From NCBI GenBank assembly GCA_036268055.1, contig DATAUW010000024.1, positions 1 through 64,000 of the forward strand: 64,000 bases of DNA, given 5' to 3'. Within the stretch, counting starts at the first letter, position 1. Each line of letters opens with the position of its first letter. A program made the translations under genes and the position numbers. Source of the stretch: Verrucomicrobiia bacterium. Lineage in GTDB: Bacteria; Verrucomicrobiota; Verrucomicrobiia; Limisphaerales; Pedosphaeraceae. The notes beneath the pieces are model-generated. The model searched no databases and was not told the DNA's origin. It worked only from the letters and a program-made list of their open reading frames with translations. Shown here piece after piece: positions 32,294 to 59,333 of this stretch.

Positions 32294-35200
32294 TCACGGT
32301 TGTTTTAATTTCAAATGAAAGAAGAGATTATTTCCCGCCGGAGTGATCGTCGTTTGATTCGTGCTGTTTTGATTGACGACCGTATTCGTTATCGGTGTCC
32401 AAACGACGGGTGGCGTTAGATTCGTAGTGGACTCCATGATGAATGCGGCGTCTGGTGTCGGCCACGCCAGATTGATCGTTCCATTCGCGCCCGGCGTGGG
32501 AATCAACTTCAACGGCAGCGTCGGCGGCGCCGCCGGATTGCCATAAACCTCGAATTCCGCGAGCGTATATCCCGTGCCGCCGCCGCTCTGTATTCCTTGC
32601 ATCCGCACATAACGCCCCGCCGTCGCGAGTGTGATATGATCCGTGCCGCCCAAACCGCTCGACGTTTCATAAACATTCGTCCAATTCATCGCGTCGCCGG
32701 AAATCTGGATATTATACGATTGCCCGTAAGTCGTCCCCCAAACCAATTTCACTCCCGTCAGATTTTGCACCGTCCCCAGGTCAACATAAATCCATTCATT
32801 CGCCGTTTTCGCGGAAGTCCACGCCGTGCCGCGAACACCATCCACCGCATTGCTGCCCGCGCCGCCTCCGCCCGCTGACGAAACGGTCACGGGCTGATTC
32901 AACGCAAAATTCGTCTGCCCCAAAGTAATCGCAATGCTCGTGCTCACGCCTGCGTTCAGTTGAATCACTCGCGCTTCCGGTCCCAGCGGCGATGAATCAA
33001 TCGCGCCGCCGCTGACGCTCATCGAACCAATCCCGCTGCGTTCAATCAGCGTGAGGCTTTGGTCAATGTCCGATAGCAGCGTGCAATTCACCGTGCCGGC
33101 ATTCATATTCCAGGCGAGGTTTTGCACCGTCACGCGATTGCGCCCTTTCACGCCGGAGATCGCACCTTGATCAAGGGTTTGTGGCAACGCGGGTAATAAC
33201 TCAAGAACGCCCGGGCTCGATGCGATGAGCATTTCCATCATAATATCCGGCATGGTATTGCAAGTGTCCGTGCAAAACGGCGCGCCGTGGCTCGTGTAAT
33301 GCGAGGTCGCCAGCGTGTTGAAATAAAAACCCTGTTGCAGCAGGAAAAGAATTTTGCGATTCACCGCCAGCGCGTCCTTCAACCCCGCCGCGATCAGCGC
33401 GCTATGAATCCAGCCGTGGCCCGCGTTCTCATAATTGAACGCATCTTTTTTCGCCAGCGTGATCACCGCCGCTTTGAACCAGGCCGGTGTTTTTTCGGGC
33501 GTGATTTCGGCGTAAGGCCACACCGTGAGCAGGTGGCTCGAATGCCGGTGATTATAATTATCCGCGAGTCCCGGCCAGTCCCATTCCTGCAACGCGCCAT
33601 CGGAGTTGATTAGGTACGGCGGAATTTTATCCAGGATGGCCGACCATCGCTCCACACCCTGCCCCGTGCCTTGTTCGAGTCCCAGCAAATTGCAGGTCTG
33701 AATCAACGCGGACAAAGCGAACTTCGCGCCTGAAATATCAAACGTGGAATTGTTCACCAGCGAAATGCCCAATCCCGCCGGCTGGTTCTCCGGCGAAACT
33801 GAACCCGCAAAAATATAATTTCCATTCGTATCCGTCAGCGTGAGAAAATCCTCGTAAAAATTCCCCATCGGTTGCAACAGCGGGTAAAGTGTGTTCGCAA
33901 GAAAATTGGTGTCACCGGTGACGAGATAATGTTCCCAAAATGGATATAGCAGCCACGGCACTTCGCCGGTCGCATATTGATACGGATAAAATGTGCTGAT
34001 GGAACCCTTGAGCCCATTTGTGCCGGGTGTATTGCCCGAAGAAATCAGGCCTCGGCAGCCCAAAAGTTTCGCCGCATTCGTCTTGAAATCATTCGCCCAA
34101 TCTTCATTGATCGCAAAATAACCGGCCATCGCTTCCGGCAGATCGCCAATATTGCCGCCGCCGATTTGCAGGTTCAAATTCGCATCCATGTTGTAGGCGA
34201 AAAATCCCGTGTCGTTCACGTCCCCAGTCCAAATGCCGTACAAATCCGGCGGTGTATTTGAACTGCTGCTCGCGAGGTAATAATAACGGCCCGCATCAAA
34301 CACTCGTTCCCAAAGCGCCTTGACCGCCGTGGATGAATTCGTCTGCATCGCCAGTAAAGTTTCATTCGCGCGCGCGCGGTCGGCGGTGGCCGCGTTCAGG
34401 TTGATTTTGACGCGATCAAAAATGGCTTGATGCACCGCGACATGATTCGACAGGAGCGAATTATAATCTGAAGGCAGCGCGGCCAGTTGATTTTGCAAAA
34501 GTTGCTGGCTCCATTGAAGCACCGCGTTGGTATAATATTTTGCGGTGCGCGAAAGCAGCAAAACGGAGTTCGCATTGCTGACGTTCAAAACCGTTCCATT
34601 GACCGACGCCTCGCCACCGGAAACGACCACACGCATCACACCTTCATACCCTGCCCCGCCAGTGTTTGCCGGATAGAGCACGCGCATATTGAGAAAGCCG
34701 GTGCTCGCGAGATTTGTGAAAACCATTCCTGACGGCAGGTGCATGCCCGGATCGGTCGCAAGTTGCAGCGAGCATGTCAGCGTGCCCGTGGTCGGCGCCG
34801 TGAGATATTGCACAACGACATTATCGGGCCGCGAAACGAAACTCCGCCGCAACCAGTCACCGCCCGCATCGCTCCAATTCACCGACACTTCACCGGTTTC
34901 AAAATTGCAACTGCGCGAATAATTGCTCACCACGCCGTTCGTCGGAATATTGATCAGCAATTCGAAACCCGGATGCCGATTATTTTCGCCGCCAGCCATC
35001 GCTTTCGGCGCGGATTGCGCAAGATTGTCCGCGTCCGAATAATCCCCGGCGACACAATCGCTTTTGATCGTCGCCAGGTTCGCCGCGCTGACTTGCAAAA
35101 ACGAACGAAGTAAACTGTTCGTACTCGCCGCCAGGCAAAATCCGCGGTCTTCAAAAATAATCGCGTCACTAAGCGGATTGCCAAAAACCATGATGCCCAT

Positions 35201-36625
35201 TTGTCCATTGCCCGAGAGCATGGCATTGCGCCAGTCGCTATACGTGAGCGGATAAATGTAAGAAAGGCCGGTTCGTTGCGGATTAAAGTCCGACGCCACA
35301 CCGACGGTGATCGTCGCGACTTGGCTTGTCGCGGAGCCAAGCGCATTCGTCACGATCAACCGATAATCCGCCGCGTCAGCCACGGAGAGCGACGCAATAT
35401 TTAAAATGTTCGTTTGCGAACCCGAGATATTACCGACGTCAGTCAGGTTCGCGAATGTTCCGTTCGTTCCCTTCTGCCATTGATAAACCAGTGGAAGCGC
35501 ACCTGAAACCACCGCCGTTAATTGCGCCGCGCTTCCCACGTTCAAACTTTGCGAAACCGGTTGCTGATTAATGCCCGGCCCCAGCAAAGGCGGCGGGCCA
35601 AACGGCTGCACCGTGATCGTCCCCGAACCGCCCGCCATAAAATTGCTCGGGAAACTCACCAATAATTCGGAATAATTATGCGTTCCCGCATTCAGCAGAA
35701 CGCCGTCGATATTCACCGCCGTGAAAATACAATTTTGATGCAGCATCATTACACCGCCATTGGTGAGCGTAAGTGTCCCCGCGCTATTCAAGTCATAACC
35801 CGGTTCTAAAATTGCGCCCGCTAGATTGGGAAATGCCGTTTGTGCCGTCGTCGCGCCGGGAACCGGCGAGGTCGCTTGCGGCATGTCATTCGTGTAACCC
35901 GTATAACCGGGATCCACGATGACGCTGTTTGTTCCCAGCGAACCCGGCGCCGCGCCTTGCAACCATCCGCATTGAATAATCCATTGCCCGGAAAAAGTAT
36001 TCGACGAGTTGGAAATGATCTGCGGCGTCGAGATTTCGTCATTGATCAAAACCAGGTTCGCCGAACCACTCAATATCCCGGCGATATTCCATTGCCGGTT
36101 TCCCGAGTCCGTCTGGAATCCCCCGCCCGCGCCGCCTGCCGCGTCTGAAATATACGATTGGTGCGTAACCAGGATCGTCCCATTGATGACGAACGGCAAA
36201 GGTTCGCTCTCGCCTGCGTTGATAAGGCCGCCGTTGAGAATCAACCCCGGATTGCCATTCACGCCGGGAAAATTCAATACAGCGCCACTGTTGCCGCTCT
36301 TTTCGCGCAACTCGCAATTCACATCCAGCGTAAGCGAATCACCGGGAAAAGTAGACGACGCGCCGGACGGATTTCGCACGCGCGTGTTGTTCGCCGCGTT
36401 GCCAAGCCCAACGCCATTCGCGATCATGGCATAATTATTTCCCGCGACCGGAGCAAGCATCGGCCCCGAAATCACTCCGGCAATATTTGTCTGCCAGATG
36501 GCCGGTGTACTCCAATTCTGTCCCGACGCCTCGACCGTTGTGGTGGTCAGATTTGCGCTCCACGCTGCTGGAACGACAATAGCCAGGCCGGCTAAAAAAA
36601 CTGCGGCGCGCAGGTTCGAATTCAT
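32294..36625 (-). CDS. Secreted GH95-like glycosidase with beta-helix-like, Ig and F5/8C modules
   Basis: 1443 residues. Signal peptide 1-24; a beta-helix-like unit (about 25-342) related to two units of the neighbouring 1733-residue protein; an Ig-like domain (about 345-440); a GH95-type catalytic region (about 447-1232). The latter starts FNPQRTGLSYIYPLTYSDW and includes MDANLNLQIGGGNIGD, HRHSSHLLTVWPYAEI and GHGWIHSALIAAGLKDA. GH95 enzymes are alpha-L-fucosidases or galactosidases. An F5/8C-type discoidin domain (about 1235-1360) and the shared C-terminal domain follow. The usual NxNxQMNYW segment is altered, so activity needs testing. An intrinsic terminator lies between this gene and the one upstream. 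Confidence 0.85.
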   Translation of the reverse strand: MNSNLRAAVFLAGLAIVVPAAWSANLTTTTVEASGQNWSTPAIWQTNIAGVISGPMLAPVAGNNYAMIANGVGLGNAANNTRVRNPSGASSTFPGDSLTLDVNCELREKSGNSGAVLNFPGVNGNPGLILNGGLINAGESEPLPFVINGTILVTHQSYISDAAGGAGGGFQTDSGNRQWNIAGILSGSANLVLINDEISTPQIISNSSNTFSGQWIIQCGWLQGAAPGSLGTNSVIVDPGYTGYTNDMPQATSPVPGATTAQTAFPNLAGAILEPGYDLNSAGTLTLTNGGVMMLHQNCIFTAVNIDGVLLNAGTHNYSELLVSFPSNFMAGGSGTITVQPFGPPPLLGPGINQQPVSQSLNVGSAAQLTAVVSGALPLVYQWQKGTNGTFANLTDVGNISGSQTNILNIASLSVADAADYRLIVTNALGSATSQVATITVGVASDFNPQRTGLSYIYPLTYSDWRNAMLSGNGQMGIMVFGNPLSDAIIFEDRGFCLAASTNSLLRSFLQVSAANLATIKSDCVAGDYSDADNLAQSAPKAMAGGENNRHPGFELLINIPTNGVVSNYSRSCNFETGEVSVNWSDAGGDWLRRSFVSRPDNVVVQYLTAPTTGTLTCSLQLATDPGMHLPSGMVFTNLASTGFLNMRVLYPANTGGAGYEGVMRVVVSGGEASVNGTVLNVSNANSVLLLSRTAKYYTNAVLQWSQQLLQNQLAALPSDYNSLLSNHVAVHQAIFDRVKINLNAATADRARANETLLAMQTNSSTAVKALWERVFDAGRYYYLASSSSNTPPDLYGIWTGDVNDTGFFAYNMDANLNLQIGGGNIGDLPEAMAGYFAINEDWANDFKTNAAKLLGCRGLISSGNTPGTNGLKGSISTFYPYQYATGEVPWLLYPFWEHYLVTGDTNFLANTLYPLLQPMGNFYEDFLTLTDTNGNYIFAGSVSPENQPAGLGISLVNNSTFDISGAKFALSALIQTCNLLGLEQGTGQGVERWSAILDKIPPYLINSDGALQEWDWPGLADNYNHRHSSHLLTVWPYAEITPEKTPAWFKAAVITLAKKDAFNYENAGHGWIHSALIAAGLKDALAVNRKILFLLQQGFYFNTLATSHYTSHGAPFCTDTCNTMPDIMMEMLIASSPGVLELLPALPQTLDQGAISGVKGRNRVTVQNLAWNMNAGTVNCTLLSDIDQSLTLIERSGIGSMSVSGGAIDSSPLGPEARVIQLNAGVSTSIAITLGQTNFALNQPVTVSSAGGGGAGSNAVDGVRGTAWTSAKTANEWIYVDLGTVQNLTGVKLVWGTTYGQSYNIQISGDAMNWTNVYETSSGLGGTDHITLATAGRYVRMQGIQSGGGTGYTLAEFEVYGNPAAPPTLPLKLIPTPGANGTINLAWPTPDAAFIMESTTNLTPPVVWTPITNTVVNQNSTNQTTITPAGNNLFFHLKLKQP

Positions 36626-44280: not shown

Positions 44281-44904
44281 TTATTTCAAAAATTTCAGCA
44301 CTGCCTCGGTGCGCGAACGGACATGAAGTTTTTCGTAGATGTGCTTGAGATGCGTGTTCACGGTGGTGACGCTGATGGAAAAGTTTTCCGCGATTTCCTT
44401 GCTGGAATAACCCTTGGAAAGCTCCTGCAAAATTTCCATTTCACGCTGCGAAAGTTTTTCGTCCTTGAGCGGATCGCGCACGGGCTCGCGGAACGATTGC
44501 ACCACGCGGCACGCGATCTGGCTGCTCATCGGCGCGCCGCCCGCCTTGACTTCCTGGATCGCGCGAAGGATGTCCGCCGGCTCGGCGCGCTTTAACAAAT
44601 ACCCGCTCGCCCCCGCTTTCAACGCGCCAAAAATCCGGTCGTTATCCTCATATACCGTAAGGATTAGGATGCGCACCGATGGGCAAATATCCTTTAGCCG
44701 CCGCGTGCAATCCACGCCGGACATGCTTGGCAAATGGATGTCCATGAGCACGACGTCGGGCAGAAGTTTCGGGATGATTTTCAACGCGTCTTCCGCGGAA
44801 TCACAAAGTGAAGTGCAGGCATAACCGGGCGCTTCGTTCAAGTAGTTCGCGAGCTTCGTGCGAAAGCTGCGATTGTCTTCCACAATGGCAATGTTGATAG
44901 GCAT
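44281..44904 (-). CDS. NarL/FixJ-type response regulator (locus A)
   Basis: 207 residues from MPINIA; the upstream extension overlaps the kinase gene. Receiver with E9/D10, phospho-acceptor D55 (VLMDIHLPSMSG) and a KR lysine in GYLLKRAEP. The LuxR-type HTH at about 145-205 includes LSQREMEILQELSKGYSSKEIA and TVNTHLKHIYEKL. It starts 7 bases after the sensor kinase stop codon, so the pair is cognate. It probably activates locus A genes, and perhaps the divergent rhamnosidase through the palindrome at 48501. It is paralogous to the regulator at 57015. Confidence 0.93.
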   Translation of the reverse strand: MPINIAIVEDNRSFRTKLANYLNEAPGYACTSLCDSAEDALKIIPKLLPDVVLMDIHLPSMSGVDCTRRLKDICPSVRILILTVYEDNDRIFGALKAGASGYLLKRAEPADILRAIQEVKAGGAPMSSQIACRVVQSFREPVRDPLKDEKLSQREMEILQELSKGYSSKEIAENFSISVTTVNTHLKHIYEKLHVRSRTEAVLKFLK

Positions 44905-44911
44905 AATTGGA

Positions 44912-47900
44912 TTATGAAATCGGCAGCCAAATGCGGCAGGCGGTTCCCGACCCCAGCTGGCTTTCGCATTCAAAACGTCCACCGATTTTTTCCAAGCGCT
45001 TCCGCATGTTCAATAAACCGTCGCCCGGCGCGAGGACGGCGGCGTTCGCGAAGCCGCAACCGTTGTCTTCGAGCACGATGCTTAAAGTGTGTTCAGCCCA
45101 GCGAATCCGCAGCCACACTTCGGAAGCTTGCGCGTGTTTTGCGATGTTGTTGAGCGCTTCGCGAATGACCAGATAAAGGTTGTGGCGCACCTCGGAAGTC
45201 AGCGGCACTTCGGGCAAGGTCTCCTCCACATCGAGACGGCAGCGCACGGAAGTGTTGCGGAAAAATTCCTCGGCCACATGTCGCAGGTACGACGCCAGGC
45301 TTGGCAACGAATCATTCGCGGGATTCACCGCCCATACGATTTCGTCGAGCGACGAAACTAACTGCCGCGATTTCTCGGAGACTTCGCTCAACTGATAGCG
45401 CGTATTTTCCGGCACCAGTGAGTCGTGGCTTTTCACGGCGCTGAGAAAACGGATTTCCGTAAGCGTTGCGCCAAGGTCGTCGTGCAAATCCCGCGCGATG
45501 CGCGTGCGCTCTTCCTCGAGCGCATGCTGGCGTTCGGCGCGTTCGCGGCTTTTGATTTCAGACGTGAGTTGTTGCGAACGCTCCTCGACTTGCCGCCGCA
45601 AAAGCGTGATCCACACCATCGCCGCCAGCAATCCGAGCAATAACGCGCCCATCACTGTGAGCGCATGGCGCATCGTCCACCATGAAGGCCGCGCCAGCAC
45701 GCGGATGCTCGCCGGCGAATTTAGCAAAAGCTCGAACGAATCAATTTCACGATTTGCCGAACGGTCGCCGCCCTGCCCCACATAAACGCCCGTCAAGCCA
45801 AGCAGGCTGCCCGGCAAAATATCCGGCAGCACGCCGTTTCGCTTTTCCAGCCGCGCGACGAAACTGCGATTGCCCGTTTGCAACTCTAAAATTTGTTCAT
45901 TGCGGTCGGCGCTGATATTCAGCAGACGAGAAGTCACGGACACGAGCGTTGAATCGAAGAGCCCATTGAGCATGGCGTTGCCCGCCAGTTGCCGCGGTTC
46001 CGGCAAATCAGCCTGGCCGATAGTTTGCGCAAGCGCCTCGCGCAACACGGGAGACGCGCCGTTCATGTCCGGAAAACCGACGACTTCAACCTGATCGCCC
46101 GGCCGGAGATCAGCCGATTTTTGCGGCCTGAAGTGAAAACCATTCGTGCCGTCCATAACGAAAAATTCGCCGTGTTGCTCGCCTAAGACGAGTCCGCTAA
46201 TACGCACGCGGCGCAAGGCATCCGCCCGCGCATCGAACAAACGCAAATCATAGGCGTGCTTGAGCGGGAGCGCGAAAGGCTGCGCAGGTGGCAATTCATC
46301 CACGGTGAAGGTGGTGTTGAAAAGCCGCAGACGCGGCAGGAGCATTTGATTTTTATCGCGATCGGGACTGCTCACACCGCGGACGCGCACCAATGCGCCT
46401 TCGACTGACTTGAAAGCATTGTCTTCGATATCGTGATATTGGATGTTCACTTTTCCACCGCGCGTCAGGAGCACGATGTTGTCCGTCTGTGGCGATATGA
46501 CGATGCCGGGAATCTCGACGTATTTGGTGGCGACGGCGCCGTTGATAAGTTCATCCCATGTCGGGCGGACCGGTTCAGGCAGAATGCCCGGACCGAGATA
46601 ACTCGCGTGGTGGATTTGGACATCGGGCGCAAAATCGGCGTGCGAAATACCTTCAATTTCCCAGTAATCACCAATCCGTGGAAATCCTGATGCCGTTGGT
46701 CCAACGTAAGAAACGTAAATGGACGAGGTTGAGTCCTGAATGAAAAAATCCCCGCCGACTCGCGCGGTGATGATGCCGCGGATTTTCACCGGATAGCCGC
46801 GTTGAGCTTCCTTGCGGCTCAGGCGCATCACCTGGACGGCGGTGGTGAGCAACGGCAAACCTTCGCCCTGGGCGTCCACGCTCGGAACTATTTTGCGATA
46901 AAAACTCGAATGAATAATCGCCCGGGCATTCGCGCGGTCCAGCCAGCCGAGAACTTCAATCTGATCGCCGGATGAAGGCTTGGGCTGCGAAGATTCTATC
47001 TCGACCTTGCCGGAGCTATCGGTGAGCGTAAAAATATTTTCTGCCGAATTGGTTGCCACCGTTCCGCTGAGATGAACAATGGCGCCGGAATTTTCGACTT
47101 CGTTCGTGCTGAGGATGGCTGCGATATTTTCGACGGGATGTTCATTCCAATGCGCGGGGTCCATTTCAAGAATGGAAATTTGGTCCGCGCCGGGAACGAC
47201 GAATGACGCGACCATTTTGCCATCCACCGCATGCGCGCTTTGATATAGCCCTACGCACTTGATCCGGCTATGCGAGAGCAGATTCCACGGCAGCGCGCGG
47301 TCCTCCATCACCCGCACATAAACGGGCCCGGCAGCGGAAGAAAGTTCAATCCACGGCGACCGGCTCTGCCCGCGAACATGCGAAACCGCGCCCTCGATCT
47401 CAACCCACTGTCCTTCCTGTGCTTCATGGGATAACTGGCCGGAAAAAAATTGACCGGGTGCGGACACGGGCGCATCTCCGAGAATCGTGATATGCAAGGG
47501 CACGTCCTCGATGAATAGCCGCGAACCATCATCGGACTTCGACCAGAAGCGATAAAGCCCGGCTCGCGGCGCGGAAAAATAACCGGTGAACACCAATCCA
47601 ACACCTGGATCCCGCGTGCGAACGCCAATATCGAAATTAGTCGCCACTCCGCTTTTAACCGCGGACAATCGCGCGAAAGGGGGTAACGATTCCCATTGGC
47701 CTTCGTAGCATTGATAATCCACACCGTGACTCAGTTTGGTGGTGTCATCGTGATTGGGCGGAGCGCGAAAAAGTTCATCGCTCGGCACCGGCTGTCGCGG
47801 CAAGCCAGGCCCTTCGACATCCACTTCAAGCGCGAAATCCCCGGTGTTGTTGAACCATTCAACCCGCACGGGGTGAAGACCGGCGGACAAAAATGTTTGA

Positions 47901-48346
47901 CCAGTGCCTTCAAAGACCATGTGATTGCCGTCGTTATCAACGAGAGCGATGGAGCCCGCCTCGCCGCGTCCAGCCTCGCAACTACCTTCGATCAAAACAT
48001 GCCGCCCCGGCTGCAATAATGCCTGCCCATGCCCGGATATTTTCAAGATGATGCAACCCGCACTGTCCTGAAAAACGATTTGGTCGCCCGCAGAACTTAC
48101 CCACAACACAGTGCCTTCAAGGCGCACCGAGCAGCCTGAAATTTCCTCGCGCGCGGCGAGTTGGCGGAGTTGAACGGCGTCGGTCAGCAGCGTGGCGGCT
48201 GGAACAGTTTCGGGTTCGGCGTTCGCGATTGAAGCGATGAATAGAGACACCAAGCATGCCAAAAAGGCAATGGACTGGCTTCGATTTTTAGAAGCCCTCT
48301 CACTCCACCATTCACGGAGCCCGCGGATGAAGTCAGGAGTGTTCAT
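44912..48346 (-). CDS. Sensor kinase with permuted PA14 and OB-like repeats (locus A)
   Basis: 1144 residues. N-terminal signal/membrane segment (24-43); OB-fold-like beta segment (about 55-125); a PA14 C-terminal half at 134-194 (LVDNDGNHMVF, SAGLHPVRVEWF, GPGLPRQPVPSDELF); then a PA14 N-terminal half at 211-290 (YEGQWESLPPF, FTGYFSAPRAGLYRF, SDDGSRLFIED), so the domain is circularly permuted. Several further OB-like segments (312-880) follow, then TM 895-917, coiled coil, HisKA_3 with H955 (RIARDLHDDLG) and ATPase (VIREALNNIAKHA, DNGCGF). PA14 domains often bind glycans, so a polysaccharide or fragment ligand is inferred. Translationally adjacent to its regulator (7 bases). Divergent from the GH78 at 48666. 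Confidence 0.88.
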   Translation of the reverse strand: MNTPDFIRGLREWWSERASKNRSQSIAFLACLVSLFIASIANAEPETVPAATLLTDAVQLRQLAAREEISGCSVRLEGTVLWVSSAGDQIVFQDSAGCIILKISGHGQALLQPGRHVLIEGSCEAGRGEAGSIALVDNDGNHMVFEGTGQTFLSAGLHPVRVEWFNNTGDFALEVDVEGPGLPRQPVPSDELFRAPPNHDDTTKLSHGVDYQCYEGQWESLPPFARLSAVKSGVATNFDIGVRTRDPGVGLVFTGYFSAPRAGLYRFWSKSDDGSRLFIEDVPLHITILGDAPVSAPGQFFSGQLSHEAQEGQWVEIEGAVSHVRGQSRSPWIELSSAAGPVYVRVMEDRALPWNLLSHSRIKCVGLYQSAHAVDGKMVASFVVPGADQISILEMDPAHWNEHPVENIAAILSTNEVENSGAIVHLSGTVATNSAENIFTLTDSSGKVEIESSQPKPSSGDQIEVLGWLDRANARAIIHSSFYRKIVPSVDAQGEGLPLLTTAVQVMRLSRKEAQRGYPVKIRGIITARVGGDFFIQDSTSSIYVSYVGPTASGFPRIGDYWEIEGISHADFAPDVQIHHASYLGPGILPEPVRPTWDELINGAVATKYVEIPGIVISPQTDNIVLLTRGGKVNIQYHDIEDNAFKSVEGALVRVRGVSSPDRDKNQMLLPRLRLFNTTFTVDELPPAQPFALPLKHAYDLRLFDARADALRRVRISGLVLGEQHGEFFVMDGTNGFHFRPQKSADLRPGDQVEVVGFPDMNGASPVLREALAQTIGQADLPEPRQLAGNAMLNGLFDSTLVSVTSRLLNISADRNEQILELQTGNRSFVARLEKRNGVLPDILPGSLLGLTGVYVGQGGDRSANREIDSFELLLNSPASIRVLARPSWWTMRHALTVMGALLLGLLAAMVWITLLRRQVEERSQQLTSEIKSRERAERQHALEEERTRIARDLHDDLGATLTEIRFLSAVKSHDSLVPENTRYQLSEVSEKSRQLVSSLDEIVWAVNPANDSLPSLASYLRHVAEEFFRNTSVRCRLDVEETLPEVPLTSEVRHNLYLVIREALNNIAKHAQASEVWLRIRWAEHTLSIVLEDNGCGFANAAVLAPGDGLLNMRKRLEKIGGRFECESQLGSGTACRIWLPIS

Positions 48347-48665: not shown

Positions 48666-51600
48666 ATGAAAATTTGCCGTTTTATAAATTGCCTGCTTTT
48701 TATTTTGGCGGGTGCAGGCTCCGCTTTCGGCGGCCCGGTGATCACTACCAACACGCTTCCTTCGAGCGCCTCGGACGTCGTCGGCAGCAGTGTCACTTTT
48801 ACGGTTGCCTTGACCAATGCAAACGCAGCCGCCTTCCAGTGGCAGGTGATTCGTGCTGGCGCCACAAATAATATTCCCGGCGCTACCAATACGACGCTCA
48901 CGCTTGCAAACCTGCAACTCACCGACACCGCCTCGTATCGCCTTCAGGCATCGAACAGTTCGGGAATCACCTTCAGCGCTGCCAGCGCGCTTACGATCAA
49001 TCCCGCGCCGGCTCCCGCGAAAAATATAGTTACCTCCTTCGCCAGCCAGACCGGTCCCGGCGCGGCGAACACGAATTTTATTCCCACCTGGATTGTCCCG
49101 GCCAACAGTCTTATCGCCCGACAATCGCCCAACAGCGTCGGAACGGGTAATTTCAGCCAATACGGCGCGGGCATGGTTTCCTCGCTGACCGACGGCGCGT
49201 TCGGTTCGTTAAATTATTGGCCAAACGTGGGCGGCAGCAGTACGGAAGTAACTTGCGGCAGCGGCGCGGGACAGTTTGTTACTTATACTCTCGCTGGTTC
49301 GCCCACCGGATATGATCTGACTAACATCATTGTCTATGGCGGATGGGGGGATGCGGGGCGCGACGAACAGGCTTACACGATTTATTATTCCACGGTTGCC
49401 AATCCCACTACTTTTATTCCGCTGACCAGCGTGAGTTACAACCCATCGAATCCCAACGGCATTCAGTCCGCGACGCGAGTTACTTTTTCATCTTCGTCAG
49501 GTGCGGCGTTTGTTCAAAACGTCGCGGCCTTGAAATTTGATTTTACTTCTCCCGCTCCGGAAAATGGATTCTGCGGATATTCAGAGATTGATGTCTTCGG
49601 TTCGCCGACTGGCGCTCCACCCGTCGCCAATCCGCCCACCAGTTCGCCTTTGTCTCCAGTCGCTGCGGGCACATCGGTGACTTTTTCTGAAACAGCATCT
49701 GGCACCATCCCGCTTCAATATCAATGGCAAACCGATAATGGCAGCAGTCCATCCAGCTATTCAGATATATCGGGAGCCACCGGTTCAAATTTTGTGCTCA
49801 ATACCTCCACGCTTGGAGGCTTCACTATGAACTTCCGTGTGCGAGTGACAGACGCAAACGGCACGACAACAAGTTCCGCGATTCCTCTGACCATCAACGG
49901 TACTAATACAATTACTTCTGCCACGACCGTCACGAATTTGCGCTGCGAACATCTGGCAAACCCGCTGGGCATTGATGTCACCAAACCTCGCTTGAGTTGG
50001 ATCATGAATTCGTCGCAACGCGGAGATCTTCAAACTGCCTATCAAGTATTAGTTGCCAGTTCGTTGACAAATCTCACGCAAGGCCAAGGCGATGTCTGGA
50101 ATAGCGGCAAAGTTCCGTCCAGCCAATCGGTACTCGTGGAATATGCCGGGCAGCCGCTGGCTTCGGGCCAAGTCTATTATTGGCAAGTGCGGATATGGGA
50201 TGCCAGCGGTAATCCATCGGATTGGAGCGCGCCCGCGACATGGAGCATGGGGTTGCTCAATCCATCGGACTGGACAGCGAAATGGATTGGCATGACAACC
50301 GATCCCAATCTCACGCCCGCCGCGCCGAGCCCCATGTTGCGAAAAACTTTTGCGATCAACAAAACCGTGACTCGCGCTACCGCTTATATCTGCGGCCTGG
50401 GATATTATGAACTTCAACTCAATGGCGCGAAAGTAGGCGATCACATCATGGATCCTTCCTGGACGCGTTATGATTATCACGCGTATTACGTGACTTATGA
50501 TGTCACCACTAATCTCATCTCAGGAACCAACGCCGTCGGTGTGCAATTAGCCAATGGCTTTTACAATCAGTGGAGCAGCGACGCGTGGAACACCGCGACC
50601 GCTCCCTGGCGCGCGCTTCCGCAAATGATTCTGCAACTGGTCGTCCAATACAGCGACGGCACTGCGAACACCATCATCAGCGACGCGTCGTGGAAAGCCT
50701 CGACAGGTCCGATTCTTTTGGATGCAACCCGGCTGGGCGAAACCTATGACGCGCGCCTCGAAAAATCGGGTTGGTCCACCGGATCGTACAACGATTCGAG
50801 CTGGACCAATGCCATTTTGCGCGAAGGAATTGCCGGTTCGCTTTTTGCCCCGGATGCCGAACCCGTCAAAGCGATGCAGTTGGTAGCTCCCAAAAAAATT
50901 ATTCCCGTATCCGGCCAGCCGGGCGTTTATACTTTTGATTTCGGACAAAATCTCGCCGGTTGGGGCAGGCTGAATGTCACTGGCCCGGCGGGAACAACCG
51001 TGCGAATGGTCTATGGCGAAAAAACCAACAGCGACGGTTCGGTGGACCAGAGCAATATCAACTACCTCGTTTCACTTCAGCAATATTTTCAAACCGAGAG
51101 CTATACTCTCAAAGGCGGCGGCGCTGAAACCTGGGAGCCTAGTTTCACTTATCACGGTTTTCGTTATGCCCAGGTTACGGGCTTACCCGACGCGCCCACC
51201 ACCAACACGCTCCTCGCGCGTGTCGTGCGAACGGCCTTCGATCCCGCCGGAAGTTTTCTTTGTTCCAACGATCTGCTCAATCGCATTGAGACGAATACTA
51301 TTTGGTCTTACATGGGAAACTTTGTCGGCATCCCGACCGATTGCCCGACGCGCGAAAAAAATGGCTGGACCGGCGACGCTCAACTCGCCTGTGAGATGGG
51401 TTTGATCCATTTCCATAGCGAGGCGGCTTACACGCGGTGGATCAGGGAATTCGGCCCAGCCCAACTTTCCAACGGCGAACTTTCTGGTGTCTTCCCCAAT
51501 GCGAACTGGGGTTACGGCGAAGGTCCGGCGTGGGAATCCGCCTATCTGCTGGTCCCCTGGTTTGTCTATCAGCACTGCGGCGATGTGCGAATCCTGATGA

Positions 51601-53843
51601 CGAATTATGGCGGCATGAAGGCGTATGTAGATTACGCCACGAGCGTCGCTTCCGGAAATATTGTTTCCTATGGACTCGGCGATTGGGAACCTGCGGGCAC
51701 AGTAACACCGGCGTCGGTGACGGACACGGGTTATTATTATGAAGACGCTTTGATCGTCGCGCAAACGGCTTCGATGATGGGTAACTCAGTAGATGCCCTC
51801 CAATACAGCAACCTCGCCGCTCAAATCAAGCTATCGTTCAACCAATCTTTTCTGGACACGAATACCCATGAATATTCCGGCGGCACGCAGACTGCGCAAT
51901 CGTGCGCGCTCTATCAGGGGCTGACTGCGTCCAATCAGATTCCCGCGGTTGCAAATGCGCTTGCGGTCGCGGTTCAACAAAATGGCAATAAAATTGATAC
52001 CGGAATTCTCGGTTCCAAATATCTATTGCGAGCACTGTGTGACGATGGCCATTCCGATACCGCCTGGGCGCTTGTGGTGCAAACGAATTATCCAAGTTGG
52101 GGTTATCAGATATTGGCGGGCGCAACGACTCTATGGGAAACCTGGAGTGGCAGTGGCGGCCAGGATTCACTCAATCATATCATGTTCGGCGATGTCTCTG
52201 CCTGGTTTATTGAATACGTAGCCGGTATTCGGCCCGGCGCTCCCGGCTATCAAACTGTCATTATCAAACCGGAGGTAATGAACGCACTTGCGTCCGCGCA
52301 AGCCACGCACGACTCGCCGTACGGCATGATCTCGAACGCGTGGCAGATCAACGGGAAATCGGTGACGATGAATCTAACCATTCCGCCCAATGCCACCGGC
52401 CTCGTTTATCTTCCCCTGCTCGGCACTGCAATTACTAACGTCACTATCCTCGAATCGGGAAAGACAATCTCGCAAAACGGCGCGGCGACCTCGAATGATC
52501 CGGGCGTCGCGTTCAGTCATTACGAAGGCACTTCGCCGCAGGATTATTTAGCATGGACGGTTGCGTCGGGAAGTTACCAATTCTCGTGGCAGGTGGTTGC
52601 TCAAGCGCCGCGCGGTCTGGCTGCTTCGGTTGGCAATCAGCAAGTGAAGTTGTTGTGGAACGCCGTGCCGGGCGTGACGAGTTACAACGTCAAGCGCGCG
52701 CCCAAATCGGGCGGGCCCTACACCACCTTGATAAATGGAAATTTCAGCTCCTATACGGACATGTCCGTCACGAATGGCGGGATTTATTACTATGTCGTCT
52801 CCGCCATCAGCGCGAACGGTGAGAGTAGTAACTCGGCGGAAGTAACCGCCACGCCGGTTCTCAATGTAAATTTTGGCTTTGAAACTCCGAACGCTGGCGG
52901 ATACGAATACAATCCCGCGAATGCCATTTGGACTTTTACTGGAGCCAGCCCAGATGGTTCGGGCATTCTCGCCAATGGCAGCGCTTTCGGAAACCCTGAT
53001 GCGCCCGAAGGCGTTCAGGCCGCGTTCGTGCAAAGCCACGGCAGCATCTCACAAATTTTGCCCGGGTTTTCTCCGGGGACAACCTACACCATCACCTTTG
53101 CGGCAGCGCAGCGATCCGGCGCGAATCAACATGGCGGCGAGTCGTGGAATTTGATGATTGATAACACGGTCATCACTAACTACAACCCCGGGCCGACCGC
53201 GACGAGTTACTCCAATTATACCGCCCGTTTCACGGCGACGGCGAAGATACATACCTTGTCATTCGTGGGAACCGATTTGGCGACGGGCGACAACACGGTC
53301 TTCATTGACAACATAAACTTTGTCCCGCCCATTCCTCCGGTTAATCCTCGCGTGACTTTTACCAGTCCAGTCAATAACACCAGCTTGGTTGCGCCGGGCA
53401 CTATCAACCTTTCGGCAACCGTGATCGCCAATAGTAACTTTGTTGCGGGCGTTCAATTCATCTCCAACACGAACAACCTCATCGCCCAGATCACCAATGC
53501 TCCTTATTCATTCACGTGGACCAATGTCGGGGCGGCAGTTTACAACTTGATCGCGCGCGTCATTTTCAACGGCACGAACACCTCCGATTCGACCACTGTA
53601 GCCGTGACGGTGACGAATTTTGCGCCCGTGATCCAGTCCGTGAGTTTAAATTCGGGAACGCTTTTTCTGGGAGGTTTTGGCAAAGCTTCGCAACCTTATG
53701 TGCTGACCCAAGCCTCAAATCTGATTCCTCCGACGGTGTGGATTCCCCTGCTAACCAATATGTCGGATGCCAGCGGCAGGTTTGCATTTACTAACTTGCC
53801 CGCCACGAACACGCAGCAGTTTTATCGAATCTCCACGCCGTGA
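48666..53843 (+). CDS. Secreted GH78 alpha-L-rhamnosidase with accessory domains
   Basis: 1725 residues. Signal peptide 1-23; Ig-like domain (24-117); GGWxDxGRDxQ module (119-313); Ig-like domain (about 318-411); GH78 (about 423-1300) beginning TNLRCEHLANPLGIDVTKPRLSW, with the rhamnosidase N-domain (YELQLNGAKVGDHIMDPSWTRYDY split) and the catalytic-domain motif TDCPTREKNGWTGDAQ. A fibronectin III domain (about 1313-1400), a CBM-like beta-sandwich (about 1400-1554), a Big-type Ig domain (1558-1652) and the shared C-terminal domain (1655-1725) follow. It should release alpha-L-rhamnose from polysaccharides outside the cell. The only plus-strand gene in this half, it converges with the second GH78 gene, 39 bases apart. 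Confidence 0.92.
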   Translation: MKICRFINCLLFILAGAGSAFGGPVITTNTLPSSASDVVGSSVTFTVALTNANAAAFQWQVIRAGATNNIPGATNTTLTLANLQLTDTASYRLQASNSSGITFSAASALTINPAPAPAKNIVTSFASQTGPGAANTNFIPTWIVPANSLIARQSPNSVGTGNFSQYGAGMVSSLTDGAFGSLNYWPNVGGSSTEVTCGSGAGQFVTYTLAGSPTGYDLTNIIVYGGWGDAGRDEQAYTIYYSTVANPTTFIPLTSVSYNPSNPNGIQSATRVTFSSSSGAAFVQNVAALKFDFTSPAPENGFCGYSEIDVFGSPTGAPPVANPPTSSPLSPVAAGTSVTFSETASGTIPLQYQWQTDNGSSPSSYSDISGATGSNFVLNTSTLGGFTMNFRVRVTDANGTTTSSAIPLTINGTNTITSATTVTNLRCEHLANPLGIDVTKPRLSWIMNSSQRGDLQTAYQVLVASSLTNLTQGQGDVWNSGKVPSSQSVLVEYAGQPLASGQVYYWQVRIWDASGNPSDWSAPATWSMGLLNPSDWTAKWIGMTTDPNLTPAAPSPMLRKTFAINKTVTRATAYICGLGYYELQLNGAKVGDHIMDPSWTRYDYHAYYVTYDVTTNLISGTNAVGVQLANGFYNQWSSDAWNTATAPWRALPQMILQLVVQYSDGTANTIISDASWKASTGPILLDATRLGETYDARLEKSGWSTGSYNDSSWTNAILREGIAGSLFAPDAEPVKAMQLVAPKKIIPVSGQPGVYTFDFGQNLAGWGRLNVTGPAGTTVRMVYGEKTNSDGSVDQSNINYLVSLQQYFQTESYTLKGGGAETWEPSFTYHGFRYAQVTGLPDAPTTNTLLARVVRTAFDPAGSFLCSNDLLNRIETNTIWSYMGNFVGIPTDCPTREKNGWTGDAQLACEMGLIHFHSEAAYTRWIREFGPAQLSNGELSGVFPNANWGYGEGPAWESAYLLVPWFVYQHCGDVRILMTNYGGMKAYVDYATSVASGNIVSYGLGDWEPAGTVTPASVTDTGYYYEDALIVAQTASMMGNSVDALQYSNLAAQIKLSFNQSFLDTNTHEYSGGTQTAQSCALYQGLTASNQIPAVANALAVAVQQNGNKIDTGILGSKYLLRALCDDGHSDTAWALVVQTNYPSWGYQILAGATTLWETWSGSGGQDSLNHIMFGDVSAWFIEYVAGIRPGAPGYQTVIIKPEVMNALASAQATHDSPYGMISNAWQINGKSVTMNLTIPPNATGLVYLPLLGTAITNVTILESGKTISQNGAATSNDPGVAFSHYEGTSPQDYLAWTVASGSYQFSWQVVAQAPRGLAASVGNQQVKLLWNAVPGVTSYNVKRAPKSGGPYTTLINGNFSSYTDMSVTNGGIYYYVVSAISANGESSNSAEVTATPVLNVNFGFETPNAGGYEYNPANAIWTFTGASPDGSGILANGSAFGNPDAPEGVQAAFVQSHGSISQILPGFSPGTTYTITFAAAQRSGANQHGGESWNLMIDNTVITNYNPGPTATSYSNYTARFTATAKIHTLSFVGTDLATGDNTVFIDNINFVPPIPPVNPRVTFTSPVNNTSLVAPGTINLSATVIANSNFVAGVQFISNTNNLIAQITNAPYSFTWTNVGAAVYNLIARVIFNGTNTSDSTTVAVTVTNFAPVIQSVSLNSGTLFLGGFGKASQPYVLTQASNLIPPTVWIPLLTNMSDASGRFAFTNLPATNTQQFYRISTP

Positions 53844-53882: not shown

Positions 53883-56828
53883 TTACAATGTCATCTCGGA
53901 TGTAAATTTGTAAGTGCCCGAACCGACTTCAAACAGTGAACAACCCGCTTCCCGGCGAAGAAGTTTCACTCCTTCAACCTGCGTTGCTGTTTGACCGCTC
54001 TCACGAATGTTCGCCGTGTCAGTGGACGGAACCCAAACGGTCGCGGTCGTGTTCGGCGGAACAATGACATCGAGGACAAGTTTATTTCCGTCGCGCTTCC
54101 ACGAAGTTGCGATGCGCCCGTTGATGGAATCAAAGCTCGTTTTCGCCCAGCTCAAACCTTCGCCGATGATCGGATGAATCAGAATAGTCTTAAATCCCGG
54201 ACTTGCGGGACGGATGCCACCGACACCGCCAAATAAATATTCGCCGCAAGACCCAAGCGAATAATGATTGAAGGAATTCATGCCCGCGTCTTGGAAACCC
54301 TTCTCCGGCGTCCATCCATCCCAGCGTTCCCAGATGGTGGTGGCACCGTGTTTTACCGAGAACAACCACGAAGGAAATGTGTCTTGCAATAATAACCGAT
54401 AGGCCGTGCTGGATTTGCCCCACTGCGTCAGCACGGGCAGCAAATAACTCACGCCAACGAAACCCGTCGAGAGATGTTCGTTTTTGGATTTGATGTCGTC
54501 CTCGAGATATTGGGCGGCGACGGGGCGTAATTCATCCGGCAGCAGGTCGAACTTGAGCGCCATCGCATAAGCGCATTGAGTGTTGCCACGGATGCGGCCA
54601 TCCTTAGCGACATAACGCTGGTCGAAAGCGGATTTAATATCTTGAAATAATTGTTCGTATTTCCGCGCGTTGTCGTCGCGGCCCACGGCGCGATACGAAC
54701 GTGCCAGCAGGGAAGTCGAGTACGCGAAATAAGCAGTCCCGATCAAGTCTTTGGGAGTGTCCGCGCCGATGGAAAGCCAGTCGCCATAATCATTGCCACG
54801 ATCACGTTCACGAATCAGATTCCGGCTGTGCCGATGAAGATACTCGACCCACTTGGTCATCGCCGGAAGATGCTGTTCCAAAATTCGCTTGTCGCCATAC
54901 ATCTCATAAATCGTCCATGGACAAATCACGCCGGCGTCGCCCCACGCGGGCACGCCGCCGCCGCCCATCGTATTAGGATTCACATCGCTGAACGAGCCGC
55001 TGGACGATTGGCCGTCGTCAACGTCCACCAGCCACTTGGTGAAAAAAGAAGCGACGTCGGCATTGTAGGTGGCCGTGCGGATGAACACTTGCGCATCGCC
55101 CATCCAGCCAAGACGTTCATCGCGTTGCGGACAATCAGTCGGCACGCTGAGATAATTTCCGCGCTGGCCCCATTGAATGTTCGATTGAAGTTGATTAACG
55201 CGCGGATCGGAGCAGGAAAATTCTCCCGTGCGCGGATTATCGGAAGCAATGACGATGCCCGTGACCGCATCTGCTTCCGGTTTGCTGGCGAGACCGGTGA
55301 GTTCCACATAACGAAAACCGTGAAACGTAAAACACGGCTGCCACACTTCGGTTCCACCGCCCTTGCAGATGTAATGATCAATGGACGGCGCGCCGCGAAG
55401 ATTCGCCGTATAAACCGTGCCGTTGGGATTGAGCATTTCCGCATGACGCAGCGTTATCTCCGTGCCCGCCGGAGCCGAAATTTTTAGACGAACGACACCC
55501 ACCATGTTCTGCCCAAGATCGAATACCCACGAATCGGGTTTGGGCTCAGTCACAGTTTTGGATTTGAGTTCGCAAATTTCGCGGACAGGTTCCATCACCT
55601 GCGACTCGATCGCAAGTTGCGATTCCACACGCGTATGAACTGGAATCCATTCGCTCTCGTTCAAGCCCGGTTCATCCCATCCTCTTAATTCCCGCCGAGC
55701 ATCGTAGTCTTCACCCATCATGAAATCCGTGTCGAGAATGGGACTGGCGTGTGACTTCCAGGAATCATCGGTCGCGATGCGTTCACTGCGGCCATCCTTG
55801 AATGTGACTTCCAACTGCGCGAGAAAGGCGGGCTCGGTTCCAAAAAAATGATTGCCGCCGTTGCCGATGTGACCGCTGTACCAGCCGTTGGCCAGTATCG
55901 CTCCCACTGCATTTTGACCTTGCTTCACCAACTGCGTGACATCGAACGCCTGATACCGCACGCGCTTGCGATAGTCGGTCCAATCCGGAGCGAGCACATG
56001 ATCGCCGACGCGCTGGTCGTTGATATCAACCTCATAAAGCCCAAGGGCGCTGGCGTATAAAGTGGCGTGCTCCACTTGCGAATTTAATTCAAACGCTTTC
56101 CGCAAATACGGCACTCCCGGTGACTGCCGCGGAATCGTCAGCATCTGATTTTCCTGAACTTCATTCGTGAAAGGCGCTCCGTCCAAATCATATTCGATGT
56201 AGAGTCTCTTCACCACATTGGGCGCGGGATCAACGCCCAGCGATTTATTATTTACCGTCATCGTGAGATGATTCTGTTTCACGAGCGCCGATACGGCAGT
56301 GGTGACATCCGCGCCTCTATTCCTTTCCACAGTTTCATAGATCGCGCGGCGGATTGTCAACGACGACACCATCGGCACCGGCGGTGTCCCCGCCGAAATC
56401 CATTTCGCGCTCCAGTCCGCCGCCGACAAAAGTCCCATCTGCCAATGCGCCACCGCGCTCCAATCGCACGCATTCCCGCTACGATCCCACGCACGCACCT
56501 TCCAGAAACAATTTTGACGCGATCCCAGCGCCGTTCCAGCATAACTAATTTGCGAAGTCTCGCCGGACGCCACCTTCCCGCTGTCCCACAAATCGCCTTG
56601 ATCGCTTTGCAATAATTTCAAAGACGACGCGACGAGAATTTGATACGCCGTCTGTTTTTCACCGCGCAAGCTCGAAGTAATCAGCCAACTCAAGCGCGGG
56701 CTCAACGTCCCCAGCCCCAACGGATCGGTGAGATACTCGCAGCGCAAATGAGTTACTTCGGCCGCGCTGGCAAATCGGATTTGCGGAAGGATCGCCGCGC
56801 ACAAAAGTATAAACAGAAATCGTTTCAT
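53883..56828 (-). CDS. Secreted GH78 alpha-L-rhamnosidase (locus B)
   Basis: 981 residues. Signal peptide 1-22; fibronectin-like N-domain (23-145; LRCEYLTDPLGLGTLSPRLSW); rhamnosidase N-terminal jelly-roll (about 250-415; LYEVDINDQRVGDHVLAPDW, YDARRELRGWDEP); a concanavalin-like domain; and the (alpha/alpha)6 catalytic domain from about 530 with CPQRDERLGWMGDAQ (566-580), FFTKWLVDVDDGQ and WERWDGWTPEKGFQ. This is a full-length, canonical GH78 without extra Ig modules. It sits downstream of the locus B response regulator after 186 bases, same strand. Its N-terminal jelly-roll resembles the sensor domain of the kinase at 57732, suggesting a shared ligand. Confidence 0.94.
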   Translation of the reverse strand: MKRFLFILLCAAILPQIRFASAAEVTHLRCEYLTDPLGLGTLSPRLSWLITSSLRGEKQTAYQILVASSLKLLQSDQGDLWDSGKVASGETSQISYAGTALGSRQNCFWKVRAWDRSGNACDWSAVAHWQMGLLSAADWSAKWISAGTPPVPMVSSLTIRRAIYETVERNRGADVTTAVSALVKQNHLTMTVNNKSLGVDPAPNVVKRLYIEYDLDGAPFTNEVQENQMLTIPRQSPGVPYLRKAFELNSQVEHATLYASALGLYEVDINDQRVGDHVLAPDWTDYRKRVRYQAFDVTQLVKQGQNAVGAILANGWYSGHIGNGGNHFFGTEPAFLAQLEVTFKDGRSERIATDDSWKSHASPILDTDFMMGEDYDARRELRGWDEPGLNESEWIPVHTRVESQLAIESQVMEPVREICELKSKTVTEPKPDSWVFDLGQNMVGVVRLKISAPAGTEITLRHAEMLNPNGTVYTANLRGAPSIDHYICKGGGTEVWQPCFTFHGFRYVELTGLASKPEADAVTGIVIASDNPRTGEFSCSDPRVNQLQSNIQWGQRGNYLSVPTDCPQRDERLGWMGDAQVFIRTATYNADVASFFTKWLVDVDDGQSSSGSFSDVNPNTMGGGGVPAWGDAGVICPWTIYEMYGDKRILEQHLPAMTKWVEYLHRHSRNLIRERDRGNDYGDWLSIGADTPKDLIGTAYFAYSTSLLARSYRAVGRDDNARKYEQLFQDIKSAFDQRYVAKDGRIRGNTQCAYAMALKFDLLPDELRPVAAQYLEDDIKSKNEHLSTGFVGVSYLLPVLTQWGKSSTAYRLLLQDTFPSWLFSVKHGATTIWERWDGWTPEKGFQDAGMNSFNHYSLGSCGEYLFGGVGGIRPASPGFKTILIHPIIGEGLSWAKTSFDSINGRIATSWKRDGNKLVLDVIVPPNTTATVWVPSTDTANIRESGQTATQVEGVKLLRREAGCSLFEVGSGTYKFTSEMTL

Positions 56829-57731: not shown

Positions 57732-59333
57732 TTAAACGGCATTATTCAACTCTGAACTTTTTGTTTCATTGATCGAAGCGGAAAGTTGCTTCGTCTTCAG
57801 TATCCACTCCCACGGCCTCCGCCGCCATTGCGAAAGTGAAACACAGAATTCCACCCGGCATCCCTTTCCAACCTGGCTGGTGACCAGGCAAGTGCCGCCA
57901 AATTCTTTCATGCGTTGCGACATGTTGATTAATCCATTGCGTTCGGTGCGCGCTTTGGCGGCGTCGAAACCTTTGCCGTTGTCCTGCACCACGACGATCA
58001 GGTTCTGGCGTTGCCAGCGGATTTGCAACGTGACTTCAGTCGCGCCCGAATGCTTCACCACATTGTTGAGCGTCTCCTTGATGGCCATCAAAAGGCTGCG
58101 GCGAATCGGAAGGTCCAGCGACGCCGCGGATATTTCCGGGTCCACGTCAAACAGGCATTGGACGGAAGTGCGTTTGAAAAATTCCTGCGCATAACCGCAA
58201 ACATACGACGCAAAATCCCGCAGCGTATCCCGCCGCGGATTCACCGCCCAAAGGATTTCGTCCATGCTGGCCAGCAATCCGCGCGCCTCTTCGCAAATGG
58301 CATGAAGCTGGGGTCGCGTTTCAGATTCGAGCGACAATTCACTTTGCGCCACTTCGCCTTGCAACACCAGTTGGGTCATCCGCGAACCAAAATCATCGTG
58401 GATGTCGCGGGCGATGCGCGCGCGTTCCTGCCGGAGAAGCCACCGCTCTTTTCGATGCAGCGCCAGTTGCGTCATGAGCCCAAGGCTGATCAAAATACCG
58501 AGGCCGCACGTCGTCAGAAGTGAAACCTGAAACCATCGGCTCTGCCAGAATGAGTAAGTGACCGGTTCCGATGGCGGAATGATTTCGACATTTTCCGGCT
58601 TCACCCACCACGGAAGCGCGCCCAAATTTGCGATGATGGTTGCAGGCGGCCAGGAGTCCGGCGCCTCTGTCATCCTTTCCCAGCCGCGCACGCCCTCGGG
58701 CACGATCCGCCAGCTTTTGTCCGACTTCACTTGGAGCACGCGTCCATCGGACAGATCAACGTGCATGCCAAAGATCATTCCGGCATTGTCCGTGGAATTA
58801 AAAGCCATCACTCCCAGCGTGTGCTCGCCCGGCGTCATCAACGCCGTCAAATCGTACTCGCACAAATTCCGCCATTCCGCGCCGCGCCCCAATTCCCGCC
58901 CGTCCAGGAAAAGTGTATGCTCATTGTCAGCCGTCACGCGGACGCGCGCCTGCACCACCTTCACTCCCGCGGGGACTTCGAACGAACGCCAAAACTGGCA
59001 AGTCTGTCGGTTAAAAGTATGCGATGCCCAAATCCATGAGCCCAAGCCGTTAGTTAGAGTATCGAACGATTCCGTCGGCCCCCCCACAACGTCCGGATTG
59101 TCAGCCGTCTCCGCCGCGAATGTCATCGGCACGAAAAAACCGAAACACAATGCCAGCGCAAGCAGACCGGCCACTCTGATCCATAAGCGGCGGTGCTTAT
59201 TCGCGGAAGGTGTATTGTGGGTTCCGAAGTGCAATGGTTTATGTGGGATATGGACGAGAGAAATTTTACTCTGAGACCGCCGCAAGAGCAAGCGAGATAC
59301 CGGCGCGCCCGTGCCGAAAATTTTCCTTACCAA
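57732..59333 (-). CDS. Sensor kinase with rhamnosidase-N-like sensing domain (locus B)
   Basis: 533 residues from a TTG start that overlaps the prepilin gene's stop by 7 bases; a GTG at residue 54 is a possible alternative. Membrane/signal segment 52-73; extracytoplasmic jelly-roll 98-213; TM 268-290; HisKA_3 with H312 ([11 protein letters not shown]); ATPase ([20 protein letters not shown]). The sensing domain shows [46 protein letters not shown] and [17 protein letters not shown], following the layout of the Bac_rhamnosid_N domain of GH78 enzymes, including the one encoded just downstream. A glycan or rhamnoside ligand is inferred. Co-translated with its response regulator. Confidence 0.88.

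Follow-up and report, generated by a model that had tools for sequence, protein, structure and literature searches.

A PA14 domain with its halves in swapped order, probably circularly permuted and inserted in an OB domain, in a sensor kinase of a Verrucomicrobiia bacterium

The 64,000-nucleotide stretch of Verrucomicrobiia DNA analysed here (contig DATAUW010000024.1; hereafter the window) encodes a large sensor kinase in which, according to an earlier note made from the sequence alone, the C-terminal half of a PA14 domain precedes the N-terminal half. Does this kinase carry a circularly permuted PA14 domain, where does that domain sit within the protein, and what might it sense? The identification of the ORF at 44912-48346 as a sensor kinase is secure: Pfam matches both HisKA_3 and HATPase_c, as is characteristic of HisKA_3 histidine kinases, and His955 of HisKA_3 is invariant in 15 aligned rows of the window kinase and its relatives. 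Pfam, AlphaFold2 and an OB profile all describe the N-terminal stretch as a run of OB-like domains (Table 1).

Table 1. Positions in the window of the sensor kinase, its parts and neighbouring genes; residues are those of the kinase.
Feature	Residues	Window positions	Strand	Basis or remark
Sensor histidine kinase, 1144 aa		44912..48346	-	Open single frame; HisKA_3 + HATPase_c
OB1 first part, strands 1-4	about 52-126	47969..48193	-	OB profile model 2-75; AlphaFold2 strands
PA14 C-terminal half	134-195	47762..47947	-	Canonical PA14 profile model 77-136
Candidate partner of calcium site, in C half	Asn166	47849..47851	-	N in 53/58 domains; putative role
Linker, PA14 native C end to native N end	196-206	47729..47761	-	Alignment of relatives
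PA14 N-terminal half	207-287	47486..47728	-	Canonical PA14 profile model 2-75; Pfam PF07691
DcisD-type motif, in N half	Asp272-Asp273	47528..47533	-	DD in 55/58 domains
OB1 last strand and exit	288-300 (AlphaFold2 strand 285-291)	47447..47485	-	OB profile resumes at model 85-128; excision test
OB2	296-402	47141..47461	-	AlphaFold2 model; VIA match to OB domains
BOF-like OB domain	420-477	46916..47089	-	Pfam PF04076
OB-repeat core common to kinase family	498-885	45692..46855	-	Alignment and profile
Likely membrane segment	895-917	45596..45664	-	Sequence inspection
HisKA_3	946-1010	45317..45511	-	Pfam
HATPase_c	1055-1143	44918..45184	-	Pfam
LuxR/NarL-type response regulator, Response_reg + GerE		44281..44904	-	ATG 44904 start chosen by eye; listed ORF from GTG 44982
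GH78 alpha-L-rhamnosidase, divergent neighbour		48666..53843	+	Domain search
Second GH78 alpha-L-rhamnosidase		53883..56828	-	Domain search

Pfam alone assigns only about residues 250-284 of the kinase to PA14 (35 residues; model 46/47-81), a part of the N half that exceeds the Pfam cut-off. When 106 canonical PA14 domains were combined into a profile, it matched both halves, at about residues 134-193 (model 77-136; 63.1 bits, iE 2.2e-18) and about residues 208-281 (model 2-75; 75.6 bits, iE 3.2e-22); the profiles that initially located the halves came from the kinases' own sequences, so this canonical set leans towards their PA14 subfamily. The whole domain is therefore matched, with the C half standing first instead of in the canonical N-to-C order. 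The two matches cover complementary, non-overlapping parts of the model and so represent one domain's worth of PA14 in swapped order and not two copies, and because the C half precedes the N half the domain is a permuted variant rather than an ordinary member of the family. The order proposed in the earlier note is thus upheld, and the ranges it gave (134-194 and 211-290) are off by a few residues at most, the final few lying in the host OB domain. The note had also listed half-domains of different folds, and two full PA14 copies after frame correction, as outcomes at odds with its proposal. Both halves belong to the same family, PA14, and a six-frame profile search of the window revealed neither a second full copy nor a frame error: among 1684 six-frame segments the PA14 profiles found no further copy at E<1, apart from two weak matches, one of 17.7 bits with a second PA14 profile in the same stretch and one of 8.2 bits elsewhere in the window (residue numbers from this search equal the ORF numbering plus 3).

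The same arrangement recurs in related kinases. A first search, covering 58 genomes, found both halves in 15 distinct proteins, one of them the window kinase, and the order is C-N in every one. The halves are separated by 8-13 residues in these proteins, versus -1 to 7 residues in 109 canonical N-to-C pairs from the same data. Un-permuting raised the best-domain score against the canonical profile in 15/15 cases (mean 69.7 to 129.8 bits) and permuting canonical PA14 domains lowered it in 106/106; any local profile search would give part of this effect once both halves match, so it has weight only in combination with the complementarity on the model. With Pfam's own profile, scores in the three proteins tried rose from 35.7 to 40.7, 46.1 to 56.7 and 46.9 to 58.2 bits. 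A whole-module profile yielded 80 rows from 293 genomes of the bacterial order, 75 of which span both PA14 halves and the OB flanks, in 43 genomes by our own count (the other five are truncated, canonical-tandem or partial), and 12 rows from 7 of 387 genomes drawn across the phylum, two of these rows being the window genome's own. The survey of other kinases suggested in the note, extended to the loci fetched from both wider searches, counts 58 distinct domains with the C-N order, that of the window kinase among them. In this wide set, canonical order was not found inside any kinase with PA14 permuted as in the window (type A), and N-C order was confined to the ORFs of the tandem L265 and the control L048. 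Since the C-N order recurs across many genomes, in all 58 of these distinct domains, and the window kinase has a single open frame, an assembly or frame artefact can for practical purposes be dismissed. Among the relatives, L052 is from a MAG named as Pedosphaera sp. and L053 from a groundwater Verrucomicrobia MAG, and one 1541-aa kinase, L262:176-4798 (-), has two consecutive OB-permuted-PA14 units. An apparent kinase-free permuted protein (two ORFs of 434-444 aa, in L263 and L264) was rejected as split genes, the remaining kinase part being found in the adjoining ORF of the same locus; L264 has unknown bases near the join.

Structure prediction had also been proposed as a check. Residues 128-292 alone, modelled as a monomer by AlphaFold2 from an alignment of 3 whole kinases and 42 half-domain rows, fold into an all-beta model of high confidence (pLDDT 90.1, pTM 0.84). 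A sequential PDB fold search of this isolated model with Foldseek gave no match at E<=0.001, the best VIA match had a Z of 5.5, and no PA14 structure was among the best 50 rows of either list. This lack of a match may reflect the permuted topology, although an unrelated fold would give the same result, and we do not take it as evidence of a new fold. The halves might alternatively be degenerate leftovers of an earlier tandem of two PA14 domains, having lost the ability to fold or bind. Trimming such a tandem at both ends would yield the same order, and 6qdi, a tandem PA14, aligns with the window segment across its copy boundary; against this, the order is kept in 58 distinct copies, 55 of which retain the Asp-Asp pair, and the model is confident, which makes such decay very improbable. 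HisKA_3 kinases act as dimers, and each half could also pair with the opposite half of a second protomer, giving two canonical-like PA14 folds across the dimer, with ligand setting the dimer. The joining linker of only 8-13 residues suits such domain swapping, and sequence tests would see intra- and inter-chain packing alike, but AlphaFold2 folds the single chain into one domain (in a model of the monomer only), and we rate domain swapping as improbable, though less so than decay. The order of the halves, their complementarity on the profile, the conservation in 58 domains and the confident segment model together support circular permutation.

Where the domain sits was examined with an OB profile made from the uninterrupted OB domains of 22 relatives, which matches the window kinase at model 2-75 before PA14 and at 85-128 after it. 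In silico excision of PA14 raised the OB score in all 14 proteins of the set (the first 15 without L043, which is cut by a contig end), and for the window kinase from 35.1 to 61.4 bits, versus 37.4 for a junction control. With the insert removed OB1 gives a continuous match, which passes model position 95 of 131, through the junction, in 10/14 proteins and stops short in the other four. The AlphaFold2 model of residues 50-410 likewise has four strands, then PA14, then a strand at 285-291, with mean pLDDT of 59-74 near the joins; a fold search with these residues was filled by OB domains. The following domain, OB2, clearly has an OB fold (VIA match to 5xix_B with Z 11.2 and rmsd 2.6 over 97 residues), and its VIA matches, with Z up to 11.2, are OB domains of Asn/Asp-tRNA synthetases. 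The permuted PA14 sits inside OB1, before the last strand of OB1, which sharpens the original description of a domain embedded among OB-like segments. We are highly confident that the PA14 of the window kinase is both circularly permuted and inserted in an OB domain.

According to the portion of the source consulted (PMC8092209), PA14 lectins have in common a beta-sandwich and a cis Asp-Asp pair, which holds the Ca2+ used in sugar binding. The window kinase has such a pair, Asp272-Asp273. Of the 55 permuted domains that bear the pair, 52 also have the equivalent of Asn166, which lies in the C half; three permuted PA14s are without it (L049, L276 and L280), and in two of these the Asn166 equivalent is also changed. 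Small as they are, these numbers hint that Asn166 and Asp272-Asp273 may form one shared site. The new chain ends lie in the hairpin directly after Asp272-Asp273.

The genes around the kinase bear on what this putative site might bind. The start codon of the response regulator lies just downstream of the kinase stop, making the regulator an adjacent partner by gene position, and response-regulator-like ORFs directly flank the kinase in 7/14 of the relatives' loci, judged by eye. The window also contains, at 32294-36625 (-), a GH95 enzyme that ends in an F5/8 type C domain and, near the second GH78 gene at 57732-59333 (-), another HisKA_3 kinase, whose sensor gives a weak GH2_N-like sugar-binding match. 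Among flank ORFs chosen from 8 of the 14 relatives' loci, 4/10 are glycoside hydrolases by Pfam, in 3 loci, and GH43, GH5 or GH3 were found in the flanks of 3/8 relatives tried. From this we infer that the kinase is likely to sense glycans outside the cell membrane and to feed the adjacent LuxR-type regulator, controlling degradation genes; that the window kinase in particular is a glycan sensor is the more probable assignment, held with moderate confidence. The permuted PA14 could instead bind something other than a glycan (a peptide, a surface polymer or another OB domain) or serve mainly as a structural spacer. The absence of the Asp-Asp pair from 3/58 domains would suit this, as would the lack of any glycoside hydrolase gene among the given ORFs at 5/8 relatives' loci tried; its conservation in the remaining 55, the PA14 parts of sulfatases and RsgI3 among the solved relatives, and the glycoside hydrolase genes beside the window's own kinase speak against it, and we consider a non-glycan role rather unlikely.

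A permuted PA14 acting as a lectin-type sensor that signals via OB1 is, on balance, the explanation we favour. The native C and N ends of PA14 are joined by the short linker and the new ends are spliced into OB1. The domain would use Ca2+ to bind the end group of a glycan on the outer side of the cytoplasmic membrane, and binding would tilt or tighten OB1, because one strand joins the Asp-Asp loop to the last strand of OB1; coupling by way of this strand is put forward tentatively, from reasoning about the layout. The change would then travel through the stacked OB domains and the membrane helix and reach the HisKA_3 kinase, which would phosphorylate the adjacent LuxR-type regulator and so switch glycan-degradation genes such as the neighbouring GH78s.

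Sister kinases, here called type B, also carry their PA14 at this OB1 position, but it belongs to another subfamily and has a different cut point. In these the first strand ('GILREYW' and similar) stands behind the C-terminal part, just before the last strand of OB1, and the 'FPDYP' segment that canonically follows the first strand stands in front. There are 13 full-length cases in 12/293 genomes. The strand motif is behind the body in 13/13 by eye and in 10/13 by profile (model about 4-23, score above 0), and the segment that canonically follows it (model about 28-44) is in front in 11/13, several at 1-2 bits. In canonical proteins the strand is in front in 16/16 by eye and in 6/16 by a four-row strand profile above 5 bits, and behind in 0/16. 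The strand moved in type B is short, so un-permuting gained no more than 1.4 to 5.1 bits in the three proteins examined, and the case for a type B permutation is made by the position of the strand in the sequence. Different cut points at the same OB site suggest two separate permutation events. A type B sister kinase is present in the window's own genome (L163:1555-5121 (+), G000:C19).

A tree from the OB core of 49 kinases (15 type A rows, 4 type B) places type A, type B, L165, L173 and L162 in one supported group (97/98) with an unsettled branching order. L162:5760-8777 (+), a relative with an empty OB1 and 48% identity in the OB core, falls inside type A. Holding type A together without L162 was not rejected (AU p 0.187), nor was holding A, B and L162 together (p 0.275), so L162 may have lost the insert or never gained it, and there may have been one insertion or more. 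L165:2112-7187 (-) and L173:1697-6448 (+) have an uninterrupted OB1, with F5/8 type C-like N-terminal matches instead of PA14. In a tree of the PA14 domains themselves, for which 35/106 canonical A domains were drawn at random and the partly masked type B kinase L199 was left out, type A and type B domains form two separate subfamilies (100/100), and 15/15 type A and 3/3 type B domains are nearer to their own canonical profile. These two subfamilies argue for two acquisitions, each permuted differently, which is the simplest reading of the sequences; one insertion followed by replacement may be the alternative. That one OB1 loop captured PA14 at least twice, from two distinct subfamilies and each time differently permuted, has in our estimate somewhat less than an even chance. 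The permutation seen in the window kinase most likely began with insertion of two tandem PA14 copies into the loop, followed by loss of both outer halves.

Circular permutation reportedly links two families of Ca2+-dependent carbohydrate-binding modules, going by the title of Montanier 2010; those modules would be alike in showing permutation in calcium-dependent sugar-binding modules, and by the title they are of other families and not sensors. The window domain resembles the PA14 family (PF07691), for example the MpPA14 adhesin lectin as far as the consulted portion of PMC8092209 describes it, in sequence family, Asp-Asp motif and predicted all-beta domain, and differs in being circularly permuted and inserted in an OB domain of a kinase. 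In the accessible portion of the RsgI3 report (PMC4711584), PA14 is likewise an outside polysaccharide-sensing module, but of two tandem copies, not described there as permuted, in an anti-sigma factor and not a kinase. PA14 is also an inserted domain in GH3 beta-glucosidases, in the same loop and in different orientations; the part of that report consulted (PMC5104943) does not describe PA14 itself as permuted, and applies 'permuted' to how entire enzyme domains are ordered. On what these sources show, RsgI3 and the GH3 enzymes are thus published precedents for PA14 sensing a polysaccharide and for insertion of PA14 in another protein, respectively. A permuted PA14 was not found described in the open-licence literature searched and, as far as that literature shows, is new here.

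For this bacterial order, the finding means that a common sensor class is under-annotated, because profile libraries detect only a fraction of a permuted PA14, as with the 35 residues seen by Pfam in the window's kinase. If PA14 was indeed captured repeatedly, the family would amount to an experiment, repeated by nature, on how a lectin can be wired into an OB barrel, and permutation would be selected because it sets which lectin loop touches the barrel. If the second permutation at this site is confirmed, one kinase family would contain two natural permutants as well as relatives with an empty site. These could readily be compared to learn how signalling contacts arise from permutation and domain insertion, and they might supply parts for glycan biosensors.
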